From Lachnospiraceae bacterium (GTDB lineage: Bacteria > Bacillota > Clostridia > Lachnospirales > Lachnospiraceae): DNA of 64,000 bases. Below, piece after piece: positions 4,013 to 49,946 of this stretch. The stretch covers positions 141,317 through 205,316 of the forward strand of contig JAMPFQ010000005.1 of the NCBI GenBank assembly GCA_023664345.1, read 5' to 3'. The position numbers and the translations under genes are program-made. The notes under the pieces are model-generated. The model saw nothing but the letters and a program-made list of their open reading frames with translations. It made no database searches and was not told the origin of the DNA. Numbering within the stretch: the stretch's first letter is position 1; each line of letters starts with the position of its first letter.

Positions 4013-4569
4013 GATATCATAATATAACAAAGGATGACATGCTCAACGGCGACGGGCTCCGCGTGGTACTGTGGGTGGCGGGCTGCAACCATTGCTGCAG
4101 GGAATGCCATAACCCCATTACCTGGGATCCGGAGGGCGGACTGCTTTTCGATGAGGCCGCCAGGCAGGAAATCTTCGAGCAGCTGGACAAGGATTATATT
4201 TCAGGCATCACTTTTTCCGGCGGCGATCCGCTGCATCCTGCCAACGGAATGGAAGTCAGGGAACTGATGGCGGAAGTAAAGCGGAAGTACCCGCATAAGA
4301 CGATCTGGCTTTACACTGGTGACGTGTGGGAAAATATATACGGTTACGCCATGATGAAATACGTGGATGTGCTGGTGGATGGGGAATTCATGGCGGATAA
4401 AAAGGACGGGCAGCTGCTCTGGAAGGGCAGTTCCAACCAGCGGGTCATCGATGTGCCAAAAACCTTAGCGCAGAAAGATGTGACGGTTCCCGTGCTGTAC
4501 TGCGGCGATTACGCGGAAGGGTACAAGATAACGGAAAGGCCGGAAAATGCGGGTAGTTGTTGTGGATGA
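4009..4569 (+). CDS. nrdG: Anaerobic ribonucleotide reductase activating protein
   Basis: Radical-SAM activase of 186 residues that installs the glycyl radical on NrdD using S-adenosylmethionine and a 4Fe-4S cluster. The cluster motif CX3CX2C is visible in 'CNHCCRECHN', followed by the SAM-binding 'TFSGGDPL'. The GTG start overlaps the nrdD stop codon, and the first residues (MRYHNITKDDMLNGDGLR) match the usual NrdG N-terminus. The open frame extends further upstream inside nrdD but is not needed. The C-terminus ends in an unusual SCCG tail. Confidence 0.93.
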   Translation: MRYHNITKDDMLNGDGLRVVLWVAGCNHCCRECHNPITWDPEGGLLFDEAARQEIFEQLDKDYISGITFSGGDPLHPANGMEVRELMAEVKRKYPHKTIWLYTGDVWENIYGYAMMKYVDVLVDGEFMADKKDGQLLWKGSSNQRVIDVPKTLAQKDVTVPVLYCGDYAEGYKITERPENAGSCCG

Positions 4570-4678
4570 AGCACAGATAAAGGAGATATGGGTCAGCCTG
4601 TATTCAATGGCAGGAATTGTGATACTTTTTGAAAAGGAAGAAACGGAGAAATATGGAAGGAATAGCGCAATTTTATAA
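4547..4678 (+). CDS. Possible 43-residue protein bridging nrdG and dut
   Basis: A short frame begins at ATG 4547 inside the end of nrdG and stops at 4678 inside the start of dut. It has a plausible AAAGG ribosome site and encodes a peptide beginning MRVVVVDEAQIKEIW, with a small hydrophobic middle and a charged tail. I do not recognise it. Overlap with both neighbours would fit coupling, but a frame this short in an overlap could also be chance. Confidence 0.3.
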   Translation: MRVVVVDEAQIKEIWVSLYSMAGIVILFEKEETEKYGRNSAIL

Positions 4679-5168
4679 AGTTAGTGAGGCCTTGTTCCTA
4701 CAGGCGGTGAAAGAGGATTTCCCACAATATTCGGAGGAAGAGATCCGGGGCATGTATGAAGCCCTGAAACTGCCCAGGAGAGCCACAAAGGGCAGCGCGG
4801 GATATGACTTTTTTGCGCCTTTCGCTTTCTTCCTGCCGCCTGCGGCCACCATAAAGATCCCCACGGGCATCCGGGTGAAGATGGACGAGGACTGGGTGCT
4901 GCAGCTTTATCCCAGGAGCGGGCTTGGTTTTAAATACAGGCTGCAGATGAACAATACGGTTGGCATCATTGACAGCGATTATTTCTATTCCGACAATGAG
5001 GGACATATTTTCGTGAAACTCACCAACGATTCCAACGAGGGAAAGACCCTGACGGTGGAGCAGGGGACGGGGATCGTACAGGGGATTTTCCTGGAGTACG
5101 GCATCACCGTGGACGACGATGCGGAGGGAATCCGCAACGGCGGTTTCGGGAGCACCACAAAATCATAA
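4653..5168 (+). CDS. dut: dUTP diphosphatase (dUTPase)
   Basis: Trimeric-type dUTPase, 171 residues, hydrolysing dUTP to dUMP and pyrophosphate to keep uracil out of DNA and supply thymidylate synthesis. All five family motifs are visible: 'KGSAGYDFFAP' (1), 'LYPRSGLGF' (2), 'GIIDSDYFY' (3), the region around 'VEQGTGIVQGIF' (4) and 'NGGFGSTTKS' (5). The phosphate-arm motif 5 is at the extreme C-terminus as usual. An N-terminal extension of about 50 residues precedes motif 1. ATG 4653 has GGAG just upstream, and TTG 4629 is the alternative. Its place behind nrdDG fits a dNTP-supply operon. Confidence 0.9.
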   Translation: MEGIAQFYKVSEALFLQAVKEDFPQYSEEEIRGMYEALKLPRRATKGSAGYDFFAPFAFFLPPAATIKIPTGIRVKMDEDWVLQLYPRSGLGFKYRLQMNNTVGIIDSDYFYSDNEGHIFVKLTNDSNEGKTLTVEQGTGIVQGIFLEYGITVDDDAEGIRNGGFGSTTKS

Positions 5169-5239
5169 ATTGACAGGATAAAAAACTTCTCTTTGGGAAA
5201 TAATGAAAAGCAAGATTATTTCGGAAGGGGAGTTTTAAT

Positions 5240-6670
5240 TTGAGCGAAGAAAAGAAAACCGCCATAAGCGGCTCTCTGGCACAGGATATGGAATATCTGA
5301 ACCATGTGCTGGGGGCGGGACGCAATTTTGATATTATCTACCGGGTCATCCATGTGGGCGGAAAGGAAGCCTGCATGTACCTGGTGGACGGATTCTGTAA
5401 GGACGACCTGGTACAGAAGCTGCTGCAGTATCTCATGGATCTGACGCCGGACAAGATGCCGCAGGACATGCACGGAATCTCCAAGCAGTTTGTCCCCTAT
5501 GTGGAAGTGGAGGTCAACGATCAGTTTGATACGGTGATCGATTCCCTGCTGTCGGGCATGTTCATCCTGCTGATCGACGGCTACAGCAAGGCGCTGCTGA
5601 TCGATTCCCGTACCTACCCCGCCAGAAGCGTGGAGGAGCCGGAGAAAGATAAGGTGCTGCGGGGCTCCAAGGACGGCTTTGTGGAAACGGTGGTGTTCAA
5701 CACCGCCCTGATCCGCCGCAGGATCCGCAGCACGGATCTCTGCATGGAAATGCTCAACGCGGGGGAAAGTTCCCACACGGACATTGTGCTCTGCTATATG
5801 GACAAAAGGGTGGATCACAATTTTCTGGAGGCGGTCAGACGCAAGATAAACGCCATTACGGTGGATGCCCTGACCATGAACCAGGAATCCCTGGCGGAGT
5901 GCCTTTACCAGAAGAAGTGGTACAATCCGTTCCCCAAGTTCAAATATACGGAGAGGCCGGACGCGGCGGCAGCCCAGGTGCTGGAGGGAAATATCGTGAT
6001 CCTGGTGGACAATTCCCCCTCGGCAATGATTCTGCCTACTACAATATTTGATGTGGTGGAGGAGGCGGACGACTATTATTTCCCGCCTATCACGGGGACT
6101 TACCTGCGGATCACGAGACTTTTGATCTCCATTCTGACCTATATCCTGACGCCCACCTTTCTGCTGCTGGTGAACCATAGCGAATGGGTGCCGGAAAGCT
6201 TTTCCTTTATCCTGTTAAAGGAGGAGCCGAATATTCCGCTGATCTGGCAGTTCCTGATCCTGGAACTGGCCATAGACGGGCTGAAGCTGGCGGCGGTGAA
6301 CACGCCCAACATGCTGAGCACGCCGCTCAGTGTGCTGGCGGCGCTGGTGCTGGGAGAGTTCTCGGTGAACAGCGGATGGTTTAGCGCGGAGGTCATGCTG
6401 TACATGGCTTTCGTGGCGGTGGCCAATTATACCCAGCAGAATTATGAACTGGGGTATGCGCTGAAATTCATGCGGATCCTTAATCTGCTGCTGACCCAGT
6501 GGTTCGGGCTGTGGGGATATATCGGAGGGATATTGGTCACGGTTCTGGCCATTGCCTGCAATAGGACAGTGGCGAAGACCAGTTATATTTATCCGCTGAT
6601 CCCCTTTAACTGGAAAGATCTGAAGAACCGCGTGATCAGGCGCAGGCTGCCAGAGGCGTTGAAAAAGTGA
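5240..6670 (+). CDS. spoVAF: GerA-family spore germination protein, SpoVAF-like
   Basis: A 476-residue inner-membrane protein of the GerA/SpoVAF family, which takes part in germinant signalling or dipicolinate-channel function in spores. About 280 soluble N-terminal residues, including 'QFDTVIDSLLSGMFILLIDG', precede a hydrophobic C-terminal half with several membrane helices beginning near 'LLISILTYILTPTFLLL'. No GerB or GerC partner follows. That isolation, the short N-terminus and the length close to B. subtilis SpoVAF favour SpoVAF over a full GerA receptor subunit. The start is TTG with GGAAGGGG about 10 nt upstream. A terminator follows. Confidence 0.75.
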   Translation: MSEEKKTAISGSLAQDMEYLNHVLGAGRNFDIIYRVIHVGGKEACMYLVDGFCKDDLVQKLLQYLMDLTPDKMPQDMHGISKQFVPYVEVEVNDQFDTVIDSLLSGMFILLIDGYSKALLIDSRTYPARSVEEPEKDKVLRGSKDGFVETVVFNTALIRRRIRSTDLCMEMLNAGESSHTDIVLCYMDKRVDHNFLEAVRRKINAITVDALTMNQESLAECLYQKKWYNPFPKFKYTERPDAAAAQVLEGNIVILVDNSPSAMILPTTIFDVVEEADDYYFPPITGTYLRITRLLISILTYILTPTFLLLVNHSEWVPESFSFILLKEEPNIPLIWQFLILELAIDGLKLAAVNTPNMLSTPLSVLAALVLGEFSVNSGWFSAEVMLYMAFVAVANYTQQNYELGYALKFMRILNLLLTQWFGLWGYIGGILVTVLAIACNRTVAKTSYIYPLIPFNWKDLKNRVIRRRLPEALKK

Positions 6671-6832: not shown

Positions 6833-7315
6833 ATGGACACATTGGAGATAAAAAAAGTAGACAAGGGCACAGACCTGGCGGATGAATTAATCTGTTTTGT
6901 GGAAAATTTCTCGTGGGAAGACGTTAAAAACCATATGTTGGGCGAACTTCGGGCATGGACGTTTACTGATTGGGAAACCCCATTTGTGGCAATCATGAAT
7001 GGCCGGATCGTAGGAATAGCCTATATCAGGAAGAAAGACTATTATCCGTTGCCTGAAATATATCCGTGGGTATCAGGTGTCTTTGTGGCGGAGGATTATC
7101 GCGGGCACAGGATCAGTGAAAAGCTGATCGCCTTTGCAAACAAGTACGCAAGGGAAAATGGGTTTGATCAAACATATATCCCGTCGATACATACAGGTTT
7201 GTACGAAAAGTATGGGTATCGTTATCTCAGGGATATTGTCAATTATGGCAATGGAATAGACAGATTGTATGTCAAGGAAATCAATATACATTGTAAGCAA
7301 AAGGCAAATAAATAG
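6833..7315 (+). CDS. GNAT-family N-acetyltransferase
   Basis: A 160-residue cytoplasmic acetyl-CoA-dependent acetyltransferase. The fold signature is visible: a core strand with 'WVSGVFVAEDYRGHRISEKL', where VFVAEDYRGHRIS is the acetyl-CoA pyrophosphate loop (Q/RxxGxG/A variant), then 'YIPSIHTGLYEKYGYRY' as the typical C-terminal strand. The substrate cannot be read from sequence. GAGGTG lies upstream of ATG 6833. Codon use is more AT-rich than the preceding operon, and the gene begins a run of small accessory-type genes. Confidence 0.85.
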   Translation: MDTLEIKKVDKGTDLADELICFVENFSWEDVKNHMLGELRAWTFTDWETPFVAIMNGRIVGIAYIRKKDYYPLPEIYPWVSGVFVAEDYRGHRISEKLIAFANKYARENGFDQTYIPSIHTGLYEKYGYRYLRDIVNYGNGIDRLYVKEINIHCKQKANK

Positions 7316-7359
7316 GTTATAATCAAGTACATAAATCAGAGGCCGGCAAGGAGGATTTT

Positions 7360-40823: not shown

Positions 40824-41016
40824 ATAATCAAAGCATATTTTTCACATTAGGCATGGCCTTGGTATCCATACCATGTGCTGCATGTTTGTCGGTTATCGTT
40901 AGTGTTTATTCTGTTCATGAAAATTCATGCTTTTAACCCCACTATAACAAGAGCAGGAGTTTTTATCAGGCAGGGTAAATGCCATGGCTCCTGCATATAC
41001 GCAAGGAGGAAAAATG

Positions 41017-42030
41017 ATGAAAGGCAACAGGGAGTACAAGAGTGATGTTTTCAGCATGCTGATGGAGGACAGGGAAAGGGCTCTGCAGCTTTACAATGCG
41101 GTGAACCGTTCGGATTACAGGAATCCGGAAGCGGTGGAGATGCACAACCTCGACAAGGGGATCTCGCTGACGGTAAGGAATGATGCGGCGTTTGTCCTTG
41201 ATATGAGCCTGAGTATCTATGAGCACCAGTCCACGGTATGTCCGAACATGCCGATAAGGAGTTTGGTCTACTTTTCCGTGATGTTGAAGAAGTATGTCAA
41301 TGATCGCAACATTTATGGAAGGTCGCTGGTGACGATACCGACGCCGCGGTTTGCGGTATTTTACAATGGGGATGAGGAGCAGCCGGAGCAATATGACCTG
41401 AAATTGTCCGATGCATTCCAGAAACCGATGGAGAAGCCGGAAATCGAACTGGTATGCAGAGTGTATAACATCAACAGTGGGAAGAACCGGGAACTGCTGG
41501 ATGGCTGTCCTTGGTTAAGGGAATACATGACCTTTGTGGAACTGGTCAGAAAATTTTATGCGGACAACGGCCATGAAGACCTGAAAGACGCGATCGAGAG
41601 GGCGATAGACCGCTGTATAGAGGAAAATGTATTAAGGAACTTCCTGGCGGCACATCGATGGGAGGTAGTGAAAGCAATGACATTGGATTACACATTTGAC
41701 AGGCAGCTCATGCTGGAGCGTCAGGAAGCCAGGGTGGAAGGACGCGAAGAGGGACGTGCGGAGGGACGTGAAGAGGGACGTGCGGAGGGACGTGAAGAGG
41801 GACGTGCGGAGGGACGCGAAGAAGGACGTGCGGAAGGTTTTGTGGAAGGCGAAGAAAAAAGCCTTATTCGTCTTGTATGTAAAAAGATGAAAAAAGGGAT
41901 AGCTCCGGAAATGATCGCGGAGATATTGGAGGAAGACCTGGAAGAGATTGTGCGTATCTGTAGTGCGGCAGAGAGATTTTCGCCAGATTATGACTGTGGC
42001 AGTATTTATGAAGAATTAAAACTCCGATGA
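41017..42030 (+). CDS. Rpn-family (PD-(D/E)XK) recombination-promoting nuclease-like protein
   Basis: A 337-residue protein of the Rpn/transposase_31-like class. The N-terminal nuclease-like domain has 'YKSDVFSMLMEDRERALQLY', an acidic 'AAFVLDMSLSIYEHQ' that matches the D...(E/S)xQ metal-binding region, and 'RSLVYFSVMLKKYV'. A helical region follows, then four perfect EGREEGRA repeats (residues about 241-272) and a charged C-terminus. Rpn proteins promote RecA-independent recombination and vary in repeat number. ATG 41017 is seven bases after GGAGG, and ATG 41014 is equally in frame. Confidence 0.8.
   Translation: MKGNREYKSDVFSMLMEDRERALQLYNAVNRSDYRNPEAVEMHNLDKGISLTVRNDAAFVLDMSLSIYEHQSTVCPNMPIRSLVYFSVMLKKYVNDRNIYGRSLVTIPTPRFAVFYNGDEEQPEQYDLKLSDAFQKPMEKPEIELVCRVYNINSGKNRELLDGCPWLREYMTFVELVRKFYADNGHEDLKDAIERAIDRCIEENVLRNFLAAHRWEVVKAMTLDYTFDRQLMLERQEARVEGREEGRAEGREEGRAEGREEGRAEGREEGRAEGFVEGEEKSLIRLVCKKMKKGIAPEMIAEILEEDLEEIVRICSAAERFSPDYDCGSIYEELKLR
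41737..41832 (+). repeat. Four 24-bp tandem repeats encoding EGREEGRA
   Basis: Four in-frame 24-bp units at 41737, 41761, 41785 and 41809 encode a highly charged, probably helical segment. A fifth, degenerate unit follows (EGFVEGEE). The repeat is coding, not a CRISPR. Confidence 0.9.
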
Positions 42031-42542
42031 TTTACATGATGGATCTCTGGAACAAGATAACAAACAATTTTCTCCGCTTTTTTCCGGCAGCGTTTCTGAT
42101 ATCGCTGGCGTTGACTTTGCTGTATAGGAAAATATTGCGGAAAGACAGGTGGGTGCCATTTTTCTTCTTCTGCATCTACCTGGTGCTGCTTATCGGCGAG
42201 ACGGTCTGGGGACGTCTGGGACAAAATATTGTGACGAAAGACTTCATCGGTATAGGTTCCTTATTTGAAGATCCCTGGTATATGGCGGCTGCGGTGGAAA
42301 ATGTTATCATGTTTCTTCCGTTTGGGTTCCTGAGTGTCAGCGCATTCCCGGCTGAAAAGGCGTGGAAACGCCACCTGGCCGGGGCGGCGTTTATGAGTGG
42401 CTGTATTGAACTGGCCCAGTATGCATTACATATCGGAGAAGCGCAGGTGGTCGATATATCAGCCAACGTACTGGGAGCCGTGCTGGGTATTCTTTTGCAG
42501 AATATTTTCACGATGATGGCCAAAAAGCCGGCACGCTTTTAG
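42027..42542 (+). CDS. VanZ-family membrane protein
   Basis: A 171-residue protein with about four helices. It shows the VanZ family pattern: the acidic 'IGETVWGRLG', then 'AVENVIMFLPFGFLSVSAFP', 'GAAFMSGCIELAQYALHIGE' and 'QVVDISANVLGAVLGILL'. The D/N-x3-N and E-x2-Q residues are conserved. VanZ proteins contribute to low-level teicoplanin resistance in one system, but most homologues have unknown envelope roles. Its ATG overlaps the stop of the Rpn-type gene (ATGA). Confidence 0.88.
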   Translation: MIYMMDLWNKITNNFLRFFPAAFLISLALTLLYRKILRKDRWVPFFFFCIYLVLLIGETVWGRLGQNIVTKDFIGIGSLFEDPWYMAAAVENVIMFLPFGFLSVSAFPAEKAWKRHLAGAAFMSGCIELAQYALHIGEAQVVDISANVLGAVLGILLQNIFTMMAKKPARF

Positions 42543-42555
42543 GTTATGATCCTGA

Positions 42556-45500
42556 TCAAAGTTCTCCTTTCAGGAACTGGCAGGCGTTCATCAGCATATC
42601 AGGATTTTTCCCCGCGATAAAATAGTAGTCCATCTGAACCTCCTTTTCTGTGTGCAGGTAAGTGCCATATGTCGGCAGGTCACAGTAGATCACAGGGGCA
42701 TCAGAGGCGACCAGGATGCCATAACCCTGATTGGAGAACAGGAAGGGCAGTTCGTCCATGGCGGAGATATATCGTGCTGTTCTCCGTAGGGAGAGCGCTT
42801 TAGTGCCGCTGGGGCCAATGGCGAAAAGCTGTTCTTTTCTGGCGGGTTCCAAAAAGAGCCATGACTGCAATCCTCCGCCGGGAATAGGTTCCTGCTGCCT
42901 GCATTCCCTGTTGCGTTCCGCCAGCAAAAGCTTTTTGTTATGGTCAAGATAGCGGATCGCACCTGTCGATTTGTCTGCCTGAAGAATCAGTTCATCTGTA
43001 GAGAATGTGACCGTCTGCCCGGATTCTTTATAAAGCCAGAATTTCTCCAGTCTGTCCACTTTGATCTGTGGATGTATACCGTCTAAAAGTTTCCCGCCTT
43101 TTGCAAAAGTTATCCGAACAATGCCGCTGCCCACAGGTGAAAGCCGCAGGATGCCGTAGCGGCTCTGTAAATACAGACCGTCAGGCTGTTTCATCACCCA
43201 GCGCACGGCCAGATCGATCCTGGCATGCCCCGCGGGACGAAGCTTCTCGGTGGGAGGAAAGTCCCCGAAATCCGGATATCCGTTTTGGGAGGATATAGCG
43301 GTCACGTTCGTGGCAGGAAAGTGCGATTCGGGGCTTTGACGGGTGCAGGCGTCTGTCGGATCACTTTGACCAGCATGGTCACTATCTTTGCTTGGGGCAT
43401 TTTGGACTTGTTGACTGGTTGAGACATTTTGACCAAAACGGTCATTTTCCGCCGCTTTATTCTCGCGAGGCTTGTATCGGGGTTGTTGGCGCTGACGGTT
43501 GTTTCTATACACCTGCATGACGGACGCTGCAGGAGATGCAGCCCTCATTTCAGGTATGTTTTCTGGACTTGCGGCGACCGGACGGGGCTTTCTTGTGTTG
43601 TATGCATTTCCGTGAGTTCTCCCGGAAGCGTCTTTATTGCCTGGATTCCCTGACGGAACATTCCTCTGTATAAAGTTTTCTGAAACTGCTTTTTCCTGCG
43701 GAACCGCTTCGCCCGGCATCATTTCCGCCGCTTCCGGCACAGGATCCGCGATCAGCCTGGTGAGGTTTCCGGTATGCAGCACGCAGAGTTCGTGCAACGC
43801 TCTGGTGGCTGCTACATACAGAAGCTTTGCGTGTCCGTCATCCACAGGATATTCTTCCCTGGTGGGATTTAAAATCAGCACGGCGTCAAATTCCAGGCCT
43901 TTCGTATATTCCACCGGAAGCACTATGATGCCGTTGCCAAATTCGGCCTTTTCCGGGTCTGTCTCCATGATCTCGATCCGTTTCCCAAGTTCCCCGGCAG
44001 CCTTATCGGCGCTTTCCCGATCCCTGCATATGACGGCAATGGTAGGCAGGTCTTTTTCCTGCCATTCATGGCACTTTTGGACGACTGCCTGCCACAGTGC
44101 ATCGCCGTCCGGAACGGACTGCACCGTTACGGGCTCTCCATGGCGGATGATGGGTTCTACAGGATAGCGCACCGATTGCCCATGGTGCAGGATATCTGTG
44201 GCGAAATGGGAAATTTCTACCGTATTGCGATAGCTTTTTTTCAAAACGCCGAAGCTGGACATGGGATCGTTGTCCAGAAGAAGCTTTCTTAAGTCCTCCC
44301 AGTCGTTCAGCCCGAAACCAAAGCGGATATTCTGGGACACATCCCCCATGATGGTGTAAGTACAGTCCTTGATGCAGAAGTGCAGGCAGTGGTATACCAT
44401 CATTCCGAAATCCTGTGCCTCGTCGATCACAATGTGGTGCGCCTCGCTGATGACATCTGTCTCCTTGGTGCGCTTATAAATATAAGCCAGCGCCGCCAGA
44501 TCGTAGATGTCAAACTCATTGCCGGGAAGCGTGATCGGCATATCCGCGTCGGGGCTGCAGCCGGGCGCTTTCGTCTGTAGGTGATCGATCGTTTCGCTGT
44601 TGGCAGGCAGGGACGCCTGCTCTTTGAGGAAATCGTCATACAGCCTGTAGGTGGACCGTTTCCAGTTCCTGCCGCCATAACGGTTCCGATAAGCTTTCAG
44701 GATGGCTTTCCGCTCGGCCTCCGTGTATTTGATGCCTTTTCCCAGAAATTCATCTTTCACCCTGGTCAGCAGCCGCTCGTTCAGCATGTTGATCTTGCTC
44801 TGGATGGAAACATGGGGATTCTGCCGGATATACCGTTCCACAGCCTGTCCGTCCATCAAAAGTATCAGCGCACTCTCGTCAGGCGTTTCCCCGCCGCTCC
44901 TGTCATAGATCCCGGATCGGCCGTTCTCGATCCCCTCGACGAACTGTCTGGGGTTTAGATAGATGGATTTTGTGGAGATCATATCCCGTTCCAGCCTGTC
45001 ACAAAACCGCTCCAACGCGTGAAACCAGCCGTCCGTTCCCTTGATGTTTCCGCTGTCCGCGTTCTGCGCTTTTTTGCGGATGTGGTATTTTTTCCCATCC
45101 CAGTCCTCGTAAAGCAGCCTGACGAAAAGCTGTTCCATGGTCATCTGGTGTACGCCGCGGACGTCCAGGCTGGGCAGGACGCCGGTGATGTAATTTAACA
45201 GGATACGGTTGCTGCCCACAATATAAAAGTCCCTGGGCTGGAAGCGTTCCGCGTAATTATACAGGATAAAGGAGATCCGGTGCATGGCCACGGTGGTCTT
45301 CCCGGAACCCGCCACTCCCTGTACGATCATATTGTGGTAAGGGGACTTGCGGATGATGTCATTCTGTTCTTTCTGGATGGTAGCGACGATCTCGCCCAGC
45401 ACGGCCTGCTTGTTCTTTGCCAGATATTTGGTGAGCAGGTCGTCATTGGAGATCACCTCGCTGTCAAAATAATCCAGAAGTTTTCCCTGTTCGATCTCGT

Positions 45501-45981
45501 AAGTGCGTTTTAACCGCAGGTCTATCCACAGGGGAGCGCCGCCGGGGGAGGGGTAACTGCATCTTCCCAGGCCGTTTTCGTAGTAGGCGTTGGCCACGGG
45601 GGCACGCCAGTCGATCACTTCCTGATGGGTGGAGTCCCGGGAGATGCCGCCTTTGCCGATATAAAGGGATTCCTCTTTGCCCAGGGCCTCGTCATGGAAG
45701 CAGATGCGCCCGAAATAAGGCTTGTTCGCAGCCCTTTCGTTCCGCTCCAGGGCGCGCTTCATGTGGTCGTGCAGGGTGATGGTGTTGTTCAGGATCACAT
45801 ACACCTCGGCGTCATTATCGTGGTAATGTTCCAGCATCTCGTCAATATTTTCTTTCATTTCCCGAACCTGACGACCATAGCTATCCATGTTCGCATGGAT
45901 CACATCGAGTGTCTCTTTCAGGTGCTTCTCCTCGTCTTCGCGGGAGGTTCCCTGAACGTGCTTTTGCTCTTCAAGTTTCAT
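42556..45981 (-). CDS. helD: HelD-type superfamily 1 helicase with GH31-N-like C-terminal domain
   Basis: A 1141-residue protein. The N-terminal coiled coil (residues 1-90) and the UvrD/HelD motor match HelD, which clears stalled RNA polymerase: Walker A 'VQGVAGSGKTTVAMHR', Walker B 'HHIVIDEAQDF', motif III/IV 'DVSQNIRFGFGLNDW', motif VI 'YVAATRALHEL'. The motor ends near residue 740. A disordered linker of about 170 residues follows. Residues about 921-1141 then form a domain resembling the N-terminal beta-sandwich of GH31 glycosidases ('EQLFAIGPSGTKALSLRRTA', 'PFLFSNQGYGILVASDAPV', 'MDYYFIAGKNPDMLM'). No GH31 catalytic barrel follows. AAAGGAG precedes the ATG. Confidence 0.88.
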   Translation of the reverse strand: MKLEEQKHVQGTSREDEEKHLKETLDVIHANMDSYGRQVREMKENIDEMLEHYHDNDAEVYVILNNTITLHDHMKRALERNERAANKPYFGRICFHDEALGKEESLYIGKGGISRDSTHQEVIDWRAPVANAYYENGLGRCSYPSPGGAPLWIDLRLKRTYEIEQGKLLDYFDSEVISNDDLLTKYLAKNKQAVLGEIVATIQKEQNDIIRKSPYHNMIVQGVAGSGKTTVAMHRISFILYNYAERFQPRDFYIVGSNRILLNYITGVLPSLDVRGVHQMTMEQLFVRLLYEDWDGKKYHIRKKAQNADSGNIKGTDGWFHALERFCDRLERDMISTKSIYLNPRQFVEGIENGRSGIYDRSGGETPDESALILLMDGQAVERYIRQNPHVSIQSKINMLNERLLTRVKDEFLGKGIKYTEAERKAILKAYRNRYGGRNWKRSTYRLYDDFLKEQASLPANSETIDHLQTKAPGCSPDADMPITLPGNEFDIYDLAALAYIYKRTKETDVISEAHHIVIDEAQDFGMMVYHCLHFCIKDCTYTIMGDVSQNIRFGFGLNDWEDLRKLLLDNDPMSSFGVLKKSYRNTVEISHFATDILHHGQSVRYPVEPIIRHGEPVTVQSVPDGDALWQAVVQKCHEWQEKDLPTIAVICRDRESADKAAGELGKRIEIMETDPEKAEFGNGIIVLPVEYTKGLEFDAVLILNPTREEYPVDDGHAKLLYVAATRALHELCVLHTGNLTRLIADPVPEAAEMMPGEAVPQEKAVSENFIQRNVPSGNPGNKDASGRTHGNAYNTRKPRPVAASPENIPEMRAASPAASVMQVYRNNRQRQQPRYKPRENKAAENDRFGQNVSTSQQVQNAPSKDSDHAGQSDPTDACTRQSPESHFPATNVTAISSQNGYPDFGDFPPTEKLRPAGHARIDLAVRWVMKQPDGLYLQSRYGILRLSPVGSGIVRITFAKGGKLLDGIHPQIKVDRLEKFWLYKESGQTVTFSTDELILQADKSTGAIRYLDHNKKLLLAERNRECRQQEPIPGGGLQSWLFLEPARKEQLFAIGPSGTKALSLRRTARYISAMDELPFLFSNQGYGILVASDAPVIYCDLPTYGTYLHTEKEVQMDYYFIAGKNPDMLMNACQFLKGEL

Positions 45982-46308: not shown

Positions 46309-46815
46309 GTGCGCGATATGGATTTTGACAGCATTTACCGGAATTATTTCAGGGACGTCTATTTCTATATCTACGGCATCGCCCGCAGCGAGAGCCTGGC
46401 GGAGGAGATCACCCAGGAGACGTTTGTGAAAGCCCTGAAAGCGATCGACGGTTTTGACGGCGGGAAAGATATCAGGGCATGGCTTTTCACCATAGCCAGA
46501 AATACCTTTTACACCTGCTGCAGGCGGCGGAAGATTTACGCGGAACAGCCCCTGGACGAGAATACCGACGCGCCGGGGCCGTCCCTGGTGGATCGGATCG
46601 TTGATGAGGAGACCGCTTTTTGCATCCATCGGTTCCTGCATGAAATGAGAGAACCCTATAAAGAGGTCTTTACGCTGCGGGTATTCGGGGAACTTTCCTA
46701 CGAGCGGATCGGAACGCTGTTCGGCAAAAGCGCAGGCTGGGCCCGCGTCATATTTTACCGGGCAAAGAAGCAGATCAATGATTATCTGGAACAAATTGCC
46801 GCAAACGGCAATTGA
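46309..46815 (+). CDS. ECF-type RNA polymerase sigma factor
   Basis: A 168-residue sigma factor. Region 2 is visible in 'YFYIYGIARSESLAEEITQE' and 'FTIARNTFYTCCRR'. Region 4 is visible in 'PYKEVFTLRVFGELSYERIG' and 'FGKSAGWARVIFYRAKKQIN'. The start is GTG, nine bases after GGAGG. The last seven codons (EQIAANGN) are encoded by a hairpin-forming 28-bp sequence that is repeated before the next gene. Its partner is the zinc-finger anti-sigma factor 158 nt downstream. Confidence 0.92.
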   Translation: MRDMDFDSIYRNYFRDVYFYIYGIARSESLAEEITQETFVKALKAIDGFDGGKDIRAWLFTIARNTFYTCCRRRKIYAEQPLDENTDAPGPSLVDRIVDEETAFCIHRFLHEMREPYKEVFTLRVFGELSYERIGTLFGKSAGWARVIFYRAKKQINDYLEQIAANGN

Positions 46816-46967
46816 AAAAACAGTCTCGAAACGGGAAGCACAATGTGCCAGAGAGCGGCACATGGAAGGATTTTCAGACGCTTTGGCGGCTGAAGAATCC
46901 TTCCCCACCAAGGGGACTGAAGTGCAGAGAACGGAACAAATTGCCGCAAACGGCAATTGAATAGAGG
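46788..46967 (+). repeat. Duplicated hairpin sequence between sigma and anti-sigma genes
   Basis: A 28-bp sequence at 46788-46815 recurs identically at 46933-46960. Each copy contains AATTGCCG-CAAA-CGGCAATT. The first ends the sigma gene. The second lies just before the anti-sigma ribosome site, with CAGAGAACGGAA on its 5' side as in the element at 11419. Between them are further hairpins: ATGTGCC/GGCACAT and GAAGGATT/AATCCTTC. Confidence 0.8.
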
Positions 46968-46973
46968 TGTATC

Positions 46974-47666
46974 ATGATGAACGAAATAAACTGTAGTATC
47001 ATAAAAGATCTTCTTCCGCTGTATATAGATGATGTGGTGAGCGCGGAGACGAGAGGTTTTATGGAGGCGCATCTAGCCCATTGTGAAACCTGCAGACAGG
47101 AATACGAGAAGCTCTCCCAAAATGCAGCGGTAGCGGATAATGCCGCCGTCAGGCTGAGAGAAGCCGCCCCGCTCCGTTCCCTGAAAAAGCGCCTGCAGCG
47201 AAAAAGGGCATTGCTGGTATCTGCGGCGCTGATTCTCCTTATCCTTGCCATAGTGCCCTTGCCCGTAAAGATCAGCCGTACCCTGGACGGCGTCCGCTGG
47301 GAGGGCGGCACAGGGCAGCCCCTGGAGGAATGTCGGGTGACGGTGGACGGATGGTATTACCGCTATCTGCTGAAAGACAGTTTTTTCAAGGGAGACATCA
47401 GCTTTACAACGGCGGAGGGGACGGTTTCCTATCATGCGCCAAACGTCACTTTGGGCCGCGACGCCATGTACCGGGACAGGGGCGGTTCCGCCACTGTATA
47501 CGATGCGGCGCCAAACCGGATGAGGGCCTTGGGATACCTGGCCGTCACAGGGAATTTTAAAGAAATCTTCATCCGCTCGGAGGAATGGAATTTTGCGGCT
47601 CCGGCGGAGAACCTGGAAGAGGCGCTGGAACTGGCGGGAGAACTCACCGTGGGAGAGTGGTATTGA
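46974..47666 (+). CDS. Zinc-finger anti-sigma factor
   Basis: A 230-residue single-pass membrane protein. The cytosolic N-terminus carries a ZAS/zf-HC2 motif: C7 in 'EINCSIIKDLLPLYIDD', then the HxxxCxxC in 'HLAHCETCRQEYEKL'. A helix follows at about residues 80-98 ('ALLVSAALILLILAIVPLPV'), then an extracellular domain ending 'LAGELTVGEWY'. It should hold the upstream sigma factor inactive until an envelope signal releases it. AGAGG lies six bases before ATG 46974, and a conserved hairpin directly precedes it. Confidence 0.9.
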   Translation: MMNEINCSIIKDLLPLYIDDVVSAETRGFMEAHLAHCETCRQEYEKLSQNAAVADNAAVRLREAAPLRSLKKRLQRKRALLVSAALILLILAIVPLPVKISRTLDGVRWEGGTGQPLEECRVTVDGWYYRYLLKDSFFKGDISFTTAEGTVSYHAPNVTLGRDAMYRDRGGSATVYDAAPNRMRALGYLAVTGNFKEIFIRSEEWNFAAPAENLEEALELAGELTVGEWY

Positions 47667-47683
47667 ACCGCCGCTGGCTTTGA

Positions 47684-47714
47684 TTACATTTTTTCATACG
47701 TTTCGTTACATTTT
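47684..47714 (+). promoter_or_regulatory. Candidate LytTR direct-repeat site
   Basis: TTACATTTT occurs at 47684 and again at 47706, exactly 22 bp (two helical turns) apart, upstream of a GATATAG -10-like sequence and the LytTR regulator gene. LytTR proteins bind such phased direct repeats. TTACATTT recurs at 49976 before the next transcription unit, at nearly the same distance from GATATAA. Confidence 0.5.
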
Positions 47715-47767
47715 GCCCCAGATTTTCCGGAAAACTACCGATATAGATAGGGAGGAGAACGAGAGGC

Positions 47768-48478
47768 ATGAACATAGGAATTTGTGACGATGAAAAGGAG
47801 ATCTGTCTGCAGATCAAAAAACTGATCCTGACAATGGCGCCTGAAAGCCAGGTGGTATGCTATTGTTCCGGGAAACAGCTTCTGGCTGAGAGACAGCGCT
47901 TTGATATACTTTTTCTGGATATACAGATGTCCGATACCAACGGAATGGACATAGCAAAGACACTGCGGGAGCGAAAGGAAGACACGGTCCTGATCTTTGT
48001 GACCGCGCTGAAGGAATATGTTTTTGAGGCCTTTGACGTGTCGGCCTTTCATTATCTGCTGAAACCGTTGGTGAAAGACAAGTTCAGCAGTGTGTTCCAG
48101 GAGGCGTTAAAGGAAGCGGAGAAGCGCATCCGTGGCAGGGAGGAATCCCTTTTTTTCCAGACGAAATCAAGGAGTTTTACCCTCTTAAAGAGCGAGATAA
48201 TCTATGTGGAGAACTGCAGGCGCAAGGTGGACATCCATACCCTGAACCAGACGGAGACCATCTATGCCACCATGGCCCACATGGAGGAACTGCTGGGGGA
48301 TGGCTTCTTCCGATGCCACAGGGGGTATCTGGTGAATATGGCGTATATCGCCCAGTACAGCGCGGACAGTATCTTTTTGAACAATGGCGAGACCATTTAC
48401 CTTTCAAAGGAAAAATACAACGACTTTGTAACCGCTTACATGAACTTTTTGAAACAGGAAGGAGTTTCCTGTGTCTGA
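47768..48478 (+). CDS. LytTR-family response regulator
   Basis: A 236-residue regulator. The receiver has D7-D8, phospho-acceptor D51 in 'ILFLDIQM' and 'HYLLKPL'. The LytTR DNA-binding domain has 'SEIIYVENCRRKVDIHT' and 'FRCHRGYLVNMAYI'. GGGAGGAGAACG lies upstream of the ATG. It overlaps the kinase gene by eight bases. Direct repeats upstream suggest autoregulation, and a matching half-site lies before the gene at 50224. Confidence 0.92.
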   Translation: MNIGICDDEKEICLQIKKLILTMAPESQVVCYCSGKQLLAERQRFDILFLDIQMSDTNGMDIAKTLRERKEDTVLIFVTALKEYVFEAFDVSAFHYLLKPLVKDKFSSVFQEALKEAEKRIRGREESLFFQTKSRSFTLLKSEIIYVENCRRKVDIHTLNQTETIYATMAHMEELLGDGFFRCHRGYLVNMAYIAQYSADSIFLNNGETIYLSKEKYNDFVTAYMNFLKQEGVSCV

Positions 48479-49946
48479 AACTTATTACCTGAGCATTGAA
48501 GTGATGAGTTTTGTCATGCGGGTCATATGGTCCGTGATCTTATGTCTCATGTACCGTCACTTTTTCAGATTAAGATTCCGTCCCGGATCCCGGTGGATGA
48601 TATTTCTCCCCGGGGTTTTGTGGTTTGCGGTCAAACAGATCCTGGATGTTTTTATCGTGGTCTCCCTGGCAACGCCTGCGGAAAGCATGAAAAGCCTTTT
48701 TAAGCAGCTGTTGGTCTACGGGATCCTGCTTTTGTTCTCTTTTCTGTTCTATCAGGGGAGCAGGAAGCAGCTTTTCCTGGTTACCATGCTGTTTGCGGCG
48801 GTCAGTGAGACAGGGCGTTTCCTCTCGTTTTCTCTTTCCGTCTTCTGGAGTAAGGCCATGGACCTCAGCAACCAGTGGTTTGAGCGCAATTATACCACGG
48901 TGGCGTTGGAGGATTATATGTCCCTGATAGAACTTCTGGCATTCCTTCAGCAATTGTCCTATACGCTGATCTTTCTTGCGGTCATATATGGCACGTTCCG
49001 CTATGTGCGCAGGATCTTTAAGAACCGGGAACTGCCCGTCCACAGGACGGAATTCCTGTTCCTGTTGTTTCCCTGTGCAAGCAGTTTCCTGCTGTGCACG
49101 CTGCTTCGGACTATTATGTTTACGTTTAACACGGGGGACGTGATGCCAAAGACGCTGTTTGAGGCGTTTCCCCTGCTCATAGGCATTGTCCCGCTGCTGC
49201 TGGTCCTGTGCCTGTTTTCCGTGCTCTATAGCATGAAGCTGTACCAGGAAATGCTGACCCTGAACGAGGAGCGCAACAGGAGGGCGGTGCTGGAAAAGCA
49301 GGTCGTCAGCATGGAGGAACATGCCAGGGAATTGGAACGCATCTATTCCGGCGTCCGTTCCATGAAGCATGATATGAAGAACCAGCTGGCGGTGCTGGAA
49401 AACCTGATCGGGCGGCGGGACGGCGGGGAGGAAATCCCCGGTTATCTGGAGCAGCTGGGCCGGACGCTGGGGAAGCTGGACATTCCGTTCCAGACGGGCA
49501 GCACGGTGGTGGATTCCCTGCTCTTCATGAAATATCATGAAGCCTGCGAGAAGCTTCCGGGAATCTGTTTTGAGGCGGAAAGCCTGATCTTTCCGAAAGA
49601 GTGCAGGATCCAGCCCACGGATCTGTGCATTATCCTGGGGAATGCGCTGGATAATGCCATAGAAGCCTGCGAGAGACCGGGCGCAGGTGCAAGCGGATGT
49701 TTTATCCGCCTGTCTTCCCGCAGCCGACAGGATATGTTTCTTCTGACAGTGGAGAACAGTTTTAACGGAGAACTGAAGATCAGCCGCGGGAGCGCTTTTC
49801 CCGCCACCACCAAGGCCGACGGCGAGGCTCACGGCATCGGAATGCACAACATCAGGACAGCCGCCGAGCGGTATCGGGGCGGAGTGTCCTGGGAGGCGGA
49901 GAAAAATAAGTTTGTGCTTACGGTGATGTTGAACAATAGCCTGTAA
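48471..49946 (+). CDS. GHKL sensor histidine kinase (AgrC-like)
   Basis: A 491-residue kinase. The N-terminal 260 residues are a multi-helix membrane sensor ('VMRVIWSVILCLMY', 'FLPGVLWFAVKQILDVFIVV', 'LIFLAVIYGTFRYV', 'PLLIGIVPLLLVLCLFSVLY'). A coiled coil and the kinase core follow: histidine in 'RSMKHDMKNQLAVL', N-box 'IILGNALDNAIEAC', G-box 'AHGIGMHNIRTA'. The start is GTG behind GGAAGGAG, overlapping the regulator. Kinases of this class usually detect peptides. No AgrB/AgrD pair is adjacent. Confidence 0.92.
   Translation: MSETYYLSIEVMSFVMRVIWSVILCLMYRHFFRLRFRPGSRWMIFLPGVLWFAVKQILDVFIVVSLATPAESMKSLFKQLLVYGILLLFSFLFYQGSRKQLFLVTMLFAAVSETGRFLSFSLSVFWSKAMDLSNQWFERNYTTVALEDYMSLIELLAFLQQLSYTLIFLAVIYGTFRYVRRIFKNRELPVHRTEFLFLLFPCASSFLLCTLLRTIMFTFNTGDVMPKTLFEAFPLLIGIVPLLLVLCLFSVLYSMKLYQEMLTLNEERNRRAVLEKQVVSMEEHARELERIYSGVRSMKHDMKNQLAVLENLIGRRDGGEEIPGYLEQLGRTLGKLDIPFQTGSTVVDSLLFMKYHEACEKLPGICFEAESLIFPKECRIQPTDLCIILGNALDNAIEACERPGAGASGCFIRLSSRSRQDMFLLTVENSFNGELKISRGSAFPATTKADGEAHGIGMHNIRTAAERYRGGVSWEAEKNKFVLTVMLNNSL

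Follow-up and report, generated by a model that had tools for sequence, protein, structure and literature searches.

A HelD-type motor joined to a barrel-less GH31 N-terminal domain in Lachnospiraceae

Introduction

Why should a motor of the kind that works on RNA polymerase end in a domain related to a sugar-cleaving enzyme? The question is raised by a gene at 42556..45981 (-) of a 64,000-nucleotide stretch from a Lachnospiraceae bacterium (GenBank assembly GCA_023664345.1, contig JAMPFQ010000005.1, positions 141,317 to 205,316), referred to below as the window, whose single frame encodes a HelD-type motor, a linker and a domain resembling the N-terminal beta-sandwich of glycoside hydrolase family 31 (GH31). 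HelD is an RNA polymerase recycling motor, presumed to free stalled polymerase from DNA; that of Bacillus subtilis is described as reaching around the beta2 lobe of RNA polymerase, with two prongs that enter the secondary and main channels (PMC7749165). A sequence-only reading of the window had proposed that the fusion could couple rescue of the polymerase to a sugar. The architecture, a HelD motor followed by a GH31 N-domain that lacks its barrel, is real and is widespread in one bacterial family, and as far as searched it has not been described before; a coupling to sugar is unlikely.

Results

The frame opens with an ATG at 45981, with AAAGGAG six bases upstream, and closes at a stop codon at 42556-42558 (-), giving 1141 residues; the open reading frame, strand, coordinates and length of the sequence-only reading were all exact. 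The motor occupies about residues 1-746 and is followed by a low-complexity linker and then by the GH31-N-like domain at about residues 921-1141, with which the frame stops, no barrel following. A scan for promoters and terminators gave no more sites than were found in shuffled sequences.

The motor had been taken for HelD-like, and this holds. Its best NCBIfam match is HelD_BACSU (E 3.8e-96, 322.7 bits) and B. subtilis HelD in the PDB (6wvk) matches it at E 2.4e-63, with aligned stretches at 63-286 and 505-746. Given that 322.7 bits does not reach the curated equivalog cut-off of HelD_BACSU (419 bits), the protein is called a HelD-type motor only and not a HelD_BACSU equivalog. On these two alignments the superfamily 1 helicase-type motor spans about residues 86-746 (43744..45726 (-)), and its helicase motifs are intact: Walker A (GVAGSGKTT, residues 222-230, 45292..45318 (-)), a DEAQD-type motif II and motif VI are all present, as they are in 60, 59 and 60, respectively, of 60 fused motors, the Walker A pattern being found also in 27 of 27 unfused motors. 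A TxQKEQ pattern occurs in 43 of the 60 fused and in 25 of the 27 unfused motors. The N-terminal part, about residues 1-85 (45727..45981 (-)), is presumed from its sequence to form the coiled-coil arm that enters the secondary channel of RNA polymerase; acidic residues D55, D57 and E59 lie near the presumed tip, which is itself unaligned since the 6wvk alignment starts at residue 63. The arm-tip residues given for B. subtilis HelD are D56, D57 and E60 (PMC7749165). A reading of the gene as part of a defence system was rejected: the PADLOC matches, of which GajB is the best (E 5.2e-12), cover the shared helicase motor and reflect general helicase similarity.

The identity of the C-terminal domain (residues 921-1141, 42559..43221 (-)) as a GH31 N-terminal, Gal_mutarotas_2-like beta-sandwich without a barrel is agreed upon by sequence profile, predicted fold and homologous loci, as the sequence-only reading had it. 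The last 221 residues alone match the alpha-xylosidase BoGH31A (5jou) at E 1.1e-7. NCBIfam gives the domain only a weak alpha-xylosidase match (E 0.042), and Pfam, searched with the window protein, gives neither a GH31-N match nor a barrel family. Since the window domain is silent in Pfam, it was the relatives and the profile built from them that revealed what it is: PF13802, the GH31 N-terminal domain, matches 12 of 23 relatives, the window's own domain not being among those matched, and a profile of the 23 matches 5jou at E 4.9e-15. All 16 of the PDB sequences matched by this profile at E <= 0.01 are GH31-type enzymes, the membership of a few that cannot be told by name being our assumption. 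The predicted fold, a low-confidence model compared by Foldseek, likewise places the domain with the GH31 N-terminal beta-sandwich, and no Tudor entry appears in the sequence or fold match lists that do so. Core residues are common to the fusion domains and the GH31 N-domains, and R1028, K1048, A1069, S1073 and C1100 have conservation of 0.87-0.97 in the fusions, far above that in GH31. In one subclade of fusions (loci L046-L053 and L154-L158) the domain ends at or just past its last strand, without the helix that follows in GH31.

The fusion could in principle be an artefact, a mis-assembly or two genes read as one, and a family-wide survey bears on this. A whole-protein search of 61 genomes first placed the fusion in many members of the genus. 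With a fused-type match defined as a domain-profile match at E 5.8e-45 or better, such matches occur in 68 of 138 genus genomes, 65 of the 68 in open frames of 1006-1277 residues, and in 33 of 397 family genomes, representing 26 of 334 genera; in a further genus genome, G762, only part of the domain is present, at the end of a contig. The next match below this set (E 2.6e-39) lies in a 786-residue frame beside a GH31 barrel match. A scan of 295 genomes of the order gave fused-type matches in G000 (the window's genome), G322, G328, G319 and G270, all of the window's family, and a scan of 291 genomes of the class gave none beyond the window's genome, two other matched genomes having GH31-sized frames. 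The surroundings were read in all 33 family genomes and in 28 of the 68 genus genomes, among them the window's, the motor being read wherever the contig reaches it. The 64 loci obtained include 63 with the domain, and in 59 of these motor and domain share one frame; three others (L044, L143, L144) are cut by contig ends and the last, L156, has a frame break in the linker. Two loci read separately comprise L203, again with a frame break in the linker, and L202, cut by a contig end. In the 59 loci the frame is continuous across the linker, and relatives do not all carry the two parts as separate genes. The two breaks, in G469 (L156, around 7219-7328 (+)) and G766 (L203, around 4038-4528 (-)), put motor and domain into separate frames, with an overlap in the linker, and may be sequencing errors or young gene splits; they favour an artefact, the chance of which is nevertheless negligible, given the 59 one-frame loci and the presence of the fusion in 26 genera, some of the genomes, G006, G371 and G425 among them, consisting of 1 to 5 contigs. 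The genome of L044 also holds a motor piece with an in-frame stop (L054).

The linker, presumed from its composition to be disordered, covers about residues 747-904 (43270..43743 (-)). The sequence-only reading had given it 170 residues; it is present and of low complexity, but measured to a conserved FG...GH motif its length is about 150-160. Over the 59 fused loci the linker has 40-247 residues (median 97), a median net charge of +5 and A, K, E, P and S as its commonest residues. The motif, whose main form in the alignment of 63 fusions is FGDxPxTExLRPxGHxRID, stands directly before the domain (residues 905-924, 43210..43269 (-)) with conservation of 0.94 for F, 0.97 for G, 0.95 for L and 0.90 for H; a strict pattern fits 44 of the 63, with looser forms visible in many of the remainder. 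In most of 22 GH31-type proteins it has no aligned counterpart, there being gaps or other residues.

The domain is under purifying selection. The ratio of nonsynonymous to synonymous substitution rates (dN/dS) was compared in eleven pairs and for the domain is 0.07-0.16 in nine of them, similar to the motor. In the window's three pairs (L031, L033, L038) the values are 0.10-0.11 for the motor, 0.09-0.10 for the domain and 0.35-0.51 for the linker, which is not looser everywhere, having 0.15-0.23 in four pairs. The two outlying pairs are L049/L050, which is saturated, and L165/L166, whose ratio of 1.17 is meaningless at a dS of 0.006 between very close sequences.

The origin of the fusion was approached through unfused HelDs. 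A motor-only search of the 397 family genomes, which does not favour the domain and in which at most two candidates were scored per genome, making its counts lower bounds, gave strong matches in at least 65 genomes, of which 32 also have a fused-type match and 33 do not. Thirty unfused HelDs were read, 18 of them from the latter 33 genomes and 12 others; the frame of L201 is truncated, and the other 29 end at most about 25 residues past the last helicase motif. Some are fairly close, with up to 63% identity over matched segments and, in the ten closest, 42-56% over the whole motor. In a motor tree of 87 sequences, which leaves out L181 and L025 (very long unfused rows in a first tree) and the truncated L201, the 27 unfused motors form one side of a branch (support 98) and the 60 fused motors one group (98). 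The domain tree likewise has the 22 GH31-type sequences on one side of a branch (98/94; 99% of 200 bootstrap trees). Together the two trees fit a single fusion followed by vertical descent, which is probably what occurred, without proving it. In one genome, G662, a fused (L170) and an unfused (L182) HelD are both present, each encoded on its own contig. A second HelD-like gene, only distantly related, occurs in the window's genome: L181 (G000:C7), at 4428-6668 (-), is a 747-residue frame with about 30% identity over the N-terminal part that ends soon past the last helicase motif.

These results bear on the possibility that the domain has little function and is carried along passively, as a neutral or stabilising C-terminal tail that a chance fusion left behind. 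The faster divergence of the domain, at about 2.2 times the rate of the motor, and the existence of related unfused HelDs that manage without it would fit such a tail. However, this is quite improbable for two reasons: first, the domain's dN/dS in nine of eleven pairs is like that of the motor; second, all 27 unfused motors are placed outside the fused group, so no loss of the domain is seen within the motor tree. A less remote possibility, though still an unlikely one, is that the domain is an intramolecular regulator that folds back on the motor or the clamp arm and controls ATPase activity, release of RNA polymerase or self-association. Motor and domain do diverge together (Mantel r 0.84, n=59, with none of 2000 permutations as high) and the motif directly before the domain is conserved while the rest of the linker is not. 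Nevertheless, a correlation of this kind is equally expected from shared descent alone, and the varying length of the linker, 40 to 247 residues, speaks against this reading.

The proposed coupling to sugar was considered at the site that would serve it. In glucosidase II the barrel together with the N-loop makes the pocket, the N-loop forming part of the active site as in other GH31 enzymes, and Asp303 is reported to bind the +1 sugar (PMC4742823). The corresponding position in the window protein (residues 1069-1079, 42745..42777 (-)) is shortened by alignment and has lost an [HQ]xN motif that stands a few residues before a conserved proline in 22 of 22 GH31-type relatives and in 0 of 63 fusions, whose loop is shorter; this pattern was written after the alignment had been viewed, and the stretch is taken to be the N-loop from its position. 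The 22 relatives are those of 25 GH31-type loci (L060-L084) that passed a coverage filter; the three checked by Pfam for a barrel all have one, the others being assigned by match and frame length. A GH31 barrel family is matched at E <= 1e-5 in 18 of 20 fused genomes tested, some of these matches being weak and partial, including the sole one in G006; at this threshold there is no barrel match in G000, the window's genome, or in G322. When neighbouring genes were clustered, without naming them by family search, every cluster besides HelD itself was confined to 13 or fewer of the 64 loci. The gene is flanked, in some members of the genus, by what we take, by eye, to be a histidine-biosynthesis-like gene on one side and AAA/MoxR-like genes on the other.

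Given these observations, it is improbable that the domain acts as a sensor, turning HelD on or off upon binding of a sugar or other small metabolite and making recycling of the polymerase follow carbon supply. Its fold does derive from a carbohydrate enzyme, and most of the fused genomes tested match a GH31 barrel family. Against this, the N-loop motif is missing from every fusion, the barrel that makes the pocket with the N-loop in glucosidase II (PMC4742823) is absent, two of the genomes with the fusion lack a barrel match altogether, and the most widely shared neighbour family reaches no more than 13 of 64 loci. On the same observations the sugar coupling of the sequence-only reading is not supported; some other ligand may be bound.

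The genes around the fusion in the window are as follows. Convergent with it, at 42027-42542 (+) and with 13 bases between the two stop codons, is a VanZ-like protein (PF04892). This is preceded at 40984-42030 (+) by a 348-residue frame with several copies of a GREEGRAE-type repeat near its C terminus, which has no Pfam match at E <= 1e-5 and which we presume to resemble Rpn/PD-(D/E)XK transposase-like proteins. On the other side, divergent from the HelD gene, 46309-49946 (+) encodes in a row an extracytoplasmic function (ECF)-type sigma factor, a zf-HC2 (anti-sigma-like) protein, a LytTR response regulator and a GHKL-type kinase.

Discussion

The fusion shares its motor sequence and helicase motifs with B. 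subtilis HelD (6wvk, 6zfb). B. subtilis HelD has 774 residues, whereas the fusion has about 395 further residues past the last helicase motif. The domain that they contain shares sequence profile, predicted fold and core residues with the N-domains of GH31 alpha-xylosidases and alpha-glucosidases (BoGH31A 5jou, FjDex31A 6jr8, YicI); it differs in being joined to a helicase and in having neither the catalytic (beta/alpha)8 barrel, nor the C-terminal GH31 domains, nor the N-loop motif.

The extension starts directly past the last helicase motif, which leaves the domain tethered to the motor by the linker, 40-247 residues long. It is suggested that the C terminus of HelD was extended in this lineage, probably once, by the N-terminal beta-sandwich of a GH31 enzyme, that the domain arrived without its barrel or lost it, and that the sugar-facing loop motif disappeared while the sandwich was kept as a folded scaffold. 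With the motor clasping the polymerase about its beta2 lobe, the linker would give the domain enough reach to contact either a site on RNA polymerase or a partner. This arrangement is likened to that of PcrA, whose C-terminal Tudor domain, on a long and apparently disordered linker, is described as binding a lineage-specific insert of the beta subunit (PMC8318588) and so anchors that helicase to RNA polymerase. The likeness to PcrA/UvrD is one of working only, with a helicase-type motor, a long linker and a small C-terminal domain in common; the motor subfamily differs, as the fold probably does, and binding to RNA polymerase is shown for PcrA but only supposed for the fusion.

On the strength of this parallel, the most likely reading is that the domain is a scaffold taken over by exaptation and attached to HelD for docking or regulation, to which we give a probability of about 0.45; in this role the domain would bind a protein partner. 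The fold-back on the motor ranks below this and ligand sensing lower again. Several points weigh against the docking or regulatory module. The protein distance of the domain grows about 2.2 times faster than that of the motor, which exceeds expectation if the domain touched only the highly conserved polymerase, and the comparison with PcrA is an analogy between folds that probably differ. The structure model, built from 5 sequences, has a mean predicted local distance difference test (pLDDT) score of 51.7, and the 39 best Foldseek matches have modest TM-scores of 0.42-0.58 over the model. Furthermore, the motor tree was made by a quick method with a midpoint root and includes only 17 of the 33 family genomes whose sole strong motor match is unfused, 18 having been fetched.

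A comparison can also be made with the delta subunit, a partner of HelD in B. subtilis that is described as a module with a flexible tail adding to HelD action (PMC7749165). Unlike the domain, delta is a protein of its own, and its tail is very acidic whereas the linker of the fusion is mildly basic. Newing and colleagues state that delta is absent from many HelD-bearing organisms, for example Clostridia (PMC7749167), and none of 20 fused genomes gave a match to the delta family PF05066, which a control search did find in B. subtilis and L. lactis.

A literature search gave no description of a HelD with a glycosidase domain, within a coverage that is thin for subscription journals and with a name, 'HelD', that is confusable with 'held'. 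A figure legend of Larsen and colleagues includes HelDs of Blautia and Roseburia, and in the main text of that article 'C-terminal' and 'glyco' occur 0 times (PMC8655204); such fused proteins may thus be among their data, unremarked in that part of the article.

In summary, a widespread set of bacteria adds a second folded module to HelD, which is known from work in Bacillus and mycobacteria as a motor acting through its own arms. It is conceivable, if doubtful, that in a whole branch of the family the module senses a small ligand other than a GH31 substrate, or a partner protein, and gates the stripping of RNA polymerase from DNA by HelD, in which case recycling would follow the state of the cell. 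If the module acts on HelD or on RNA polymerase, the fusion would clearly show a domain of a metabolic enzyme put to a new use in transcription, and it would offer a test of HelD control where the delta subunit is not found.
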